Shown in pieces: positions 32,371 through 33,500 of a DNA stretch of 53,489 bases (the first letter of the stretch is position 1; every line of letters starts with the position of its first letter). Origin of the DNA: Dethiobacter alkaliphilus AHT 1 (GTDB taxonomy: Bacteria; Bacillota; Dethiobacteria; Dethiobacterales; Dethiobacteraceae); NCBI RefSeq assembly GCF_000174415.1, contig NZ_ACJM01000017.1, forward strand, positions 1-53,489. The letters run 5' to 3'. The notes beneath the pieces are model-generated. The model worked only from the letters and a program-made list of their open reading frames with translations, was not told the DNA's origin and searched no databases. The translations under genes and the position numbers were made by a program.

Positions 32371-32400
32371 AGAAAAAGAAGCCTTTATGTATAAGGCCTC
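32371..32400 (-). terminator. intrinsic terminator after the c-di-GMP-controlled gene
   Basis: On the minus strand the short GCCTT/AAGGC-type stem (32381-32397, flanking imperfect pairs) is followed by TTCTTTTTCT. Confidence 0.65.
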
Positions 32401-32411
32401 TTAGGTATTCT

Positions 32412-32675
32412 TTAAGCGGGAAGCATGGCGGCAAAACGCTCCAGGCGCCGCTCCATCTTTTCTTTTTTATATGGTTCCCAATATCCTTTTTGCCTGCCCG
32501 CCGCATCTTTTATGTCTTCGTTTAATTGATTGACAATTGCGGCCTTTCCTTGGCGAATCCGTTCTTTTTCCTGAAGCAAATCAATACCTTCGGTTATTTC
32601 TTCCTGCAGTTCCCTGCATTCCTGACGCATCTGCTTCAATAAGCTGTTAAGCTGATAAACATCGGACTGGTACAT
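32412..32675 (-). CDS. small coiled-coil protein under c-di-GMP riboswitch, 87 aa
   Basis: The 87-residue, highly charged helical protein has no signal peptide or membrane segment and no family I recognise. It begins MYQSDVYQLNSLLKQMRQE and ends MERRLERFAAMLPA. The heptad pattern suggests a coiled coil with a possible central turn (KDAAGRQKGYWEPYKKEK). The start has AAGGAGG 5 nt upstream, directly after the expression platform of a cyclic-di-GMP-I riboswitch. It is the only gene between that riboswitch and its own terminator, so its expression should respond to c-di-GMP. A role in the motility-to-sessile switch is plausible but unproven. Confidence 0.8.
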   Translation of the reverse strand: MYQSDVYQLNSLLKQMRQECRELQEEITEGIDLLQEKERIRQGKAAIVNQLNEDIKDAAGRQKGYWEPYKKEKMERRLERFAAMLPA

Positions 32676-32696
32676 ATCGGCCTCCTTTTAGGCAAT

Positions 32697-32721
32697 AAAA
32701 AAACTGCTTACCGAAAAGCAG
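32697..32721 (-). terminator. riboswitch expression-platform terminator
   Basis: On the minus strand CTGCTT-TTCGGT-AAGCAG is followed by seven T. Its 5' arm CTGC also pairs in an alternative hairpin GCAGG-TTCTGAG-CCTGC just upstream, a plausible switch. Confidence 0.85.
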
Positions 32722-32734
32722 GCTCAGAACCTGC

Positions 32735-32815
32735 CCGGCAACCGGCTGTCATCGCTGTAAAAACAGCATTAGACCCTTGGCTTTGCGTCCCTGCCTTTCG
32801 ACAGGTTTGCCTTTT
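32735..32815 (-). ncRNA. cyclic-di-GMP-I (GEMM) riboswitch aptamer
   Basis: On the minus strand the conserved GEMM-I core is present: GGCAAACC, a GAAA tetraloop in TGTCGAAAGGCA, GGGACGCAAAGCCA, then GGGTCTAATGCTG, a variable P3 hairpin ending in CAGCGATGACAGCCGG, and TTGCC closing P1 with GGCAA. The GAAA loop/receptor and the GCAAAGCC ligand-side segment are intact. The aptamer lies before a terminator and the 87-aa coiled-coil gene. Whether c-di-GMP turns expression on or off cannot be told with certainty. Confidence 0.92.
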
Positions 32816-32911
32816 TCAAGCATAAAACTATATATTTTTCACCATAACCTATTCTGTAAAAACAGCTAATATCCTGCCTGTTTCGACAAATTTTTGACCA
32901 AGATTTAGACC

Positions 32912-32937
32912 AAAAAGACCATCCTGTTTGGATGGCC
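32912..32937 (-). terminator. intrinsic terminator of the tRNA cluster
   Basis: On the minus strand GGCCATCC-AAACA-GGATGGTC is followed by TTTTT, just after tRNA-Leu. Confidence 0.9.
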
Positions 32938-32964
32938 TGTAAGCATTGCGCTTTATATTATAAA

Positions 32965-33053
32965 TGGTGCCGGAGACCGGAATCGAACCGGTACGGCCAT
33001 GGTGGGCCGAGGGATTTTAAGTCCCTTGCGTCTGCCTGTTCCGCCACTCCGGC
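32965..33053 (-). tRNA. tRNA-Leu (anticodon TAA)
   Basis: This class II tRNA with a long variable arm has acceptor GCCGGAG/CTCCGGC and an encoded CCA. The anticodon loop in AGGGACTTAAAATCCCT gives TAA. It is the last gene of the cluster and is followed by a terminator. Confidence 0.96.
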
Positions 33054-33075
33054 AAATAGTTCTTTACATAAAAAA

Positions 33076-33150
33076 TGGAGGCGACACCCGGATTTGAACC
33101 GGGGAATAAAGGATTTGCAGTCCTCTGCCTTACCACTTGGCTATGTCGCC
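33076..33150 (-). tRNA. tRNA-Cys (anticodon GCA)
   Basis: Acceptor GGCGACA/TGTCGCC, discriminator T and an encoded CCA are present. The anticodon segment GGACTGCAAATCC reads GCA. It has its own promoter 25 bp upstream. Confidence 0.97.
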
Positions 33151-33176
33151 CCGCCTGTTATTTAGTTGGCATATCC

Positions 33177-33205
33177 ATATTAGCATACGGAAGCCCGGCC
33201 GTCAA
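33177..33205 (-). promoter_or_regulatory. promoter of the tRNA-Cys/tRNA-Leu pair
   Basis: On the minus strand, -35 TTGACG (33200-33205) and extended -10 TGCTAATAT (-10 at 33177-33182) have a 17-bp spacer. A GGCCGT/ACGGCC inverted repeat (33197-33213) is centred on the -35 box. Confidence 0.85.
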
Positions 33206-33221
33206 GTACGGCCAATATTTG

Positions 33222-33249
33222 GATTAATTAAGGCGCACGGTGTGCGCCT
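33222..33249 (-). terminator. hairpin terminator after tRNA-Gly
   Basis: On the minus strand AGGCGCAC-ACC-GTGCGCCT is followed by TAATTAATCC. The stem is strong but the T-run weak, so termination may be partial. Confidence 0.6.
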
Positions 33250-33263
33250 GAGTTAGTTTCTTA

Positions 33264-33338
33264 TGGAGCGGAAGACGGGATTCGAACCCGCGACCCTCGC
33301 CTTGGCAAGGCGATGCTCTACCACTGAGCTACTTCCGC
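33264..33338 (-). tRNA. tRNA-Gly (anticodon GCC)
   Basis: Acceptor GCGGAAG/CTTCCGC, an encoded CCA and the anticodon arm CGCCTTGCCAAGGCG reading GCC are present. It is separated from tRNA-Phe by a single base. Confidence 0.97.
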
Positions 33339-33339
33339 G

Positions 33340-33415
<76 letters not shown>

Positions 33416-33423
33416 AAAATAAA

Positions 33424-33500
33424 TGGCGGAGCTGACGGGAGTCGAACCCGCGATCTCCTGCGTGACAGGCAGGCATGTTAGGCCTCTACACCACAGCTCC
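33424..33500 (-). tRNA. tRNA-Asp (anticodon GTC)
   Basis: Acceptor GGAGCTG/CAGCTCC, discriminator G and an encoded CCA are present. The anticodon arm CTGCCTGTCACGCAG reads GTC. It is the first gene of the cluster. Confidence 0.97.

Follow-up and report, generated by a model that had tools for sequence, protein, structure and literature searches.

Which gene is served by the c-di-GMP-I riboswitch on the minus strand of this DNA, and does c-di-GMP switch that gene on or off? The window, meaning the whole stretch of 53,489 nucleotides that was analysed, comes from Dethiobacter alkaliphilus, a motile and spore-forming species. The reading favoured here, with a probability of about 0.4, is a transcriptional c-di-GMP-I riboswitch of the ON type that controls one taxon-restricted small coiled-coil protein. 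The positions of the relevant features are presented in Table 1.

Table 1. Features of the riboswitch locus and its surroundings in the window.
Feature	Position	Strand	Description or basis
tRNA cluster Asp-Phe-Gly-Cys-Leu	32968..33500	-	downstream of rex, order kept in relatives
Terminator of tRNA cluster	32916..32938	-	9-bp stem and T-run; separates cluster from riboswitch
c-di-GMP-I (GEMM-I) aptamer	32734..32821	-	cmscan 83.4 bits, E 4.9e-15, full model
Long hairpin L	32708..32741	-	UUGCCG (32741-32736) pairs with CGGUAA (32713-32708) and encloses T
Hairpin T, alternative hairpin	32735-32717	-	GGCAGGUU-CUG-AGCCUGCU
Hairpin S, terminator-like, 6 bp	32721-32704	-	CUGCUU-UUCGGU-AAGCAG; consensus terminator scan
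U7 tract, abutted by hairpin S	32703-32697	-	consensus terminator scan
Ribosome binding site AGGAGG	32681..32686	-	sequence; 5 nt 5' of ATG
Gene for 87-aa orphan coiled-coil/helical protein	32412..32675 (ATG at 32675)	-	ORF, coding statistics
Intrinsic terminator after gene	32376..32402	-	10-bp stem and T-rich tail

The aptamer was identified as RF01051 (c-di-GMP-I, GEMM-I) using Rfam cmscan. The match spans positions 1-87 of the model, which is its full length, over 88 nt, and its score is to be set against a gathering score (the curated cut-off) of 35 bits. The full GEMM-I aptamer claimed in the earlier note is confirmed by this result; the covariance search named there as a check scored the aptamer well above the cut-off rather than failing to find it. 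The aptamer starts 6 bases past the end coordinate that the note had given. The GAAA tetraloop and the receptor-bearing paired hairpins are present, and both domains are aligned in the match. The ligand-contacting bases, presumably G20, A47, and C92 in Vc2 numbering, correspond to positions 32810, 32783, and 32738, respectively. The G at Vc2 position 20 and the A at position 47 are found in 10 of the 10 copies in this genome, the window's copy included. By homology, these bases point to an expected specificity for c-di-GMP and not for cGAMP, and a cGAMP-variant aptamer was ruled out by the G at position 20. The aptamer is an ordinary member of RF01051, and only the gene that it controls is of modest interest.

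The expression platform downstream of the aptamer consists of three overlapping hairpins (L, T, and S) and the U7 tract. The 7-bp core of hairpin T has a folding energy of -8.1 kcal/mol, and its 3' arm shares bases with the 5' arm of the terminator hairpin S, so that the alternative hairpin overlapping a terminator, as described in the earlier note, is indeed present beside the U7 tract. Hairpin S (-6.1 kcal/mol) is weaker than most terminators of the sister riboswitches. Of the automatic terminator tables for those riboswitches, one picks an incorrect stem for part of its entries and the other often merges double hairpins, which makes its values of 0.0 artefacts; the cases relied on are named ones that were checked by eye.

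The aptamer 3' strand UUGCCG contains the ligand-binding C, and in the predicted free fold this strand is paired with CGGUAA. The pairing takes up the ligand-contacting C. Hairpin L cannot coexist with the ligand-bound aptamer, and the platform is predicted to be mutually exclusive with ligand binding. In predicted folding, the probability of hairpin L is 0.98 without the ligand constraint and 0.01 with it. An extension of L (C77-G118) that reaches the U-tract passes through mismatches and has a probability of 0.52 in the free state and near 0 in the bound state. Hairpin T forms directly once transcribed in stepwise folding and has a predicted probability of about 0.98-0.99 in both the free and the bound states once the U-tract has been transcribed. 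With the aptamer held, hairpin T is favoured over S by about 3.6 kcal/mol, and the predicted probability of S is 0.01-0.05 in transcripts ending at the U-tract.

These predicted energies lean toward an ON switch, in that L is lost on binding, T persists, and S hardly forms. Without ligand, the aptamer strand UUGCCG would pair with CGGUAA beside the U7 tract to give one long hairpin, which would extend imperfectly to the U-tract and cause transcription to terminate or stall. With c-di-GMP bound, UUGCCG would be held in the aptamer and the short upper hairpin T alone would remain. Hairpin T would then block the weak terminator S, and read-through into the gene would follow, as in the pilM architecture. 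In the pilM ON switch, the aptamer strand is part of the terminator, and the aptamer fold cannot form alongside it (PMC9262584). The pilM cGAMP riboswitch of Geobacter metallireducens has the same long hairpin, built with the aptamer 3' strand and exclusive of the aptamer (PMC9262584). The window's riboswitch differs in its ligand base, a G, for which c-di-GMP and not cGAMP is expected, and in the base of its hairpin, which lies 4 nt from the U-tract.

This spacing counts against the ON reading, since the strong part of L stops 4 nt short of the U-tract and is followed by mismatches, which is a poor geometry for a terminator. The nearest paralogue, C7:61582 of the same genome, carries a strong terminator of the S type, and its predicted response is OFF. 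By analogy, the class-I riboswitches tested in C. difficile, which are OFF switches (PMC6200980), also speak for the opposite sign. No consensus sigma-A promoter was found upstream on the minus strand. If transcription is continued for 10 nt beyond the U-tract, S is preferred in the model of the bound state (0.81), though this preference comes too late for termination at the U7 tract.

The locus may instead be an OFF switch of the Cd1 type, a reading considered somewhat less likely than the ON switch. Hairpin L would serve as the antiterminator; c-di-GMP would hold the aptamer strand, S would form at the U7 tract, and transcription would stop. The protein would thus be made at low c-di-GMP, like motility proteins. 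Hairpin S alone offers a perfect stem directly against the U7 tract, and the paralogue C7:61582, which aligns with the window's riboswitch through the platform, has predicted probabilities for S of 0.00 in the free state and 1.00 in the bound state. The flgB riboswitch of the same genome is also predicted to be OFF, and so are the class-I switches of C. difficile known to be (PMC6200980, PMC11477304). In Cd1 itself (C. difficile flgB, OFF; PMC9262584, PMC6200980), an S hairpin is likewise compatible with the bound aptamer, and the aptamer strand pairs with parts of the terminator in the alternative fold, but the S hairpin of the window is predicted to form in neither state. It is weak, and with ligand bound in the model its probability stays low, since T forms earlier and is the stronger of the two. 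For the sign of regulation, the energies lean toward ON and homology leans toward OFF. Loss of the UUGCCG/CGGUAA pairing on ligand binding is the safest prediction of the folding models, and it is common to both readings.

A real aptamer could also be joined to a degenerate and barely responsive platform, with the gene approximately constitutive or not expressed. The S arm is shorter than that of the paralogue C7:61582, and for about 630 nt after this paralogue no ORF of 60 aa or more is led by an RBS. In C. difficile, no coding sequence is detectable after five of the class-I riboswitches, and Bc1 of B. thuringiensis is unresponsive (PMC11218506). The missing consensus promoter at the window's locus fits this account as well. 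The aptamer is intact, however, and so is the ORF, with its strong ribosome binding site, its coding statistics, and its own terminator, and a degenerate platform is considered unlikely.

The 87-codon ORF has a codon score of 0.46 bits per codon, compared with 0.43 +/- 0.13 for the trusted genes of the window. Control windows from wrong frames or from the opposite strand all scored lower. Together with the strong ribosome binding site, the coding statistics support the ORF as a real gene. The small gene with a strong ribosome binding site and its own terminator, as claimed in the earlier note, was found as described. A chance open frame in a non-coding or leader RNA, to which the lack of a homologue in all genome and sequence sets searched might point, is very improbable given a codon score at the level of real genes and unmatched by wrong-frame windows, an AGGAGG at 5 nt, and shuffled copies that remain open in 0.4% of cases.

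The 87-aa protein was modelled from its single sequence as one helix of residues 2-84 with a pLDDT of 88, and no hydrophobic stretch is visible. It is, according to this model, a soluble and all-helical orphan. No relatives were detected within the same genome at E up to 10, in the genus, or in 20 genomes of the order, 98 of the class, and 398 of the phylum. None was found in the contigs of 84,980 GTDB species, in a search sensitive to close relatives only, or in viral contigs, phages, and plasmids, where a single chance match in phages appeared. Searches of Pfam, NCBIfam, PHROGs, and PDB returned only chance coiled-coil matches, those to families all below the cut-off. The arrangement claimed in the earlier note, a c-di-GMP-I riboswitch before an uncharacterised helical gene, is supported. 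The potential new c-di-GMP effector output suggested there is a candidate reading: the protein has no family match or found relative, so comparison of genomes lends the pairing of riboswitch and gene no support. A FlgN flagellar chaperone (PF05130) was rejected: there was no match at E up to 1, and FlgN-type genes are already present in the flagellar cluster of this genome. As a best guess, the character of the sequence and the other nine riboswitch targets weakly suggest that the protein is a soluble coiled-coil adaptor with a part in motility or surface control. Under the ON reading, the protein would most likely be a soluble helical adaptor that works by binding a partner through coiled-coil contact.

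The riboswitch and gene are located just beyond the tRNA cluster. In relatives, the rex-tRNA(Asp-Phe-Gly-Cys-Leu) order is kept upstream and the content after the tRNAs differs each time, so the riboswitch and gene occupy a variable stretch. The proposed check for the same riboswitch/gene pair in related genomes turned up a conserved rex-tRNA segment without the pair. An integrase-like gene lies directly after tRNA-Leu in one relative (G006:C72), at the place of the window's riboswitch and gene. The end of the tRNA cluster may be an insertion hot spot; no attachment-site repeat of tRNA-Leu was found within the window. No sigma-A-type promoter was found on the minus strand in the interval from the tRNA terminator to the aptamer, and a sigma-28 promoter was rejected, the best site being no better than shuffles (p 0.32).

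On the other side of the gene, the minus strand encodes a 115-aa protein with MDRLEGR-type heptad repeats (32229-31882) and sigma-A-like promoters of its own. Unlike its riboswitch-led neighbour, this protein has relatives, and 6 other genomes of the order contain matches. An operon shared with the neighbouring 115/122-aa coiled-coil gene is unlikely, since a terminator and the sigma-A-like promoters lie between. Also on the minus strand of the window, T-box leaders that exceed the gathering score were found at two places, 50683-50469 and 23391-23173.

The genome contains ten c-di-GMP-I riboswitches. Their targets include an HD-domain gene followed by CheW and a receptor-like gene, a transglutaminase-domain protein, a CWB2/CAP surface protein, a chemoreceptor, and flgB-flgC. 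Two GGDEF diguanylate cyclase genes are also riboswitch-led (G000:C30:1764-1847 and G000:C1:102217-102302), which suggests feedback on c-di-GMP synthesis. The closest relative of the window's riboswitch (G000:C7:61582-61666) has an intact aptamer and a strong terminator. Downstream of the riboswitch at G000:C5:37784-37870, uvrB (of uvrB-uvrA) begins after 342 nt with two terminators between, and this riboswitch probably does not control uvrBA. Across the order, c-di-GMP-I riboswitches are present in 19 of 20 genomes, often before flgB-flgC-fliE. Repeatedly within the family, at nine listed loci, they precede genes with a TasA/CalY-like N-terminus (a MAWFTD-type motif, named by eye), and the products are possibly biofilm matrix proteins. 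Tandem aptamers were observed at G014:C36:19914-20171, where the copies are nearly identical and lie upstream of flgB, and at G015:C27:33317-33639.

The window's riboswitch shares with the RF01051 class the whole aptamer, the ligand-binding bases, the position before a gene, and a platform of overlapping terminator and antiterminator. The aptamer shows no difference from the class; in the platform, the S stem is unusually weak and its competitor, hairpin T, is strong. In C. difficile, class-I riboswitches lie upstream of small hypothetical proteins, including CD1424, CD1981.2, CD2309, and others (PMC11477304, PMC6200980), with the same aptamer followed by a short uncharacterised gene. Some of these are described as 58-aa proteins, whereas that of the window is an 87-aa helical protein, a distinction drawn from the descriptions. 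A class-I switch before a small hypothetical protein is thus already known, and the particular gene is new. A class-I ON switch that arose in a Firmicute when one hairpin of an OFF-type platform became stronger and another weaker, and that drives a lineage-specific coiled-coil protein would be a new kind of c-di-GMP output; this fuller proposal is regarded as quite unlikely.

Riboswitch targets provide an unbiased listing of what c-di-GMP controls. Here, a soda-lake bacterium devotes one of its ten switches to a gene without relatives in the genomes searched, and riboswitch control ties that gene to the control of motility or surface lifestyle without any homology. The sister platforms within one genome, C7:61582 predicted to be OFF and the window's leaning toward ON, could be used to test how few changes are needed to reverse the response of a riboswitch.
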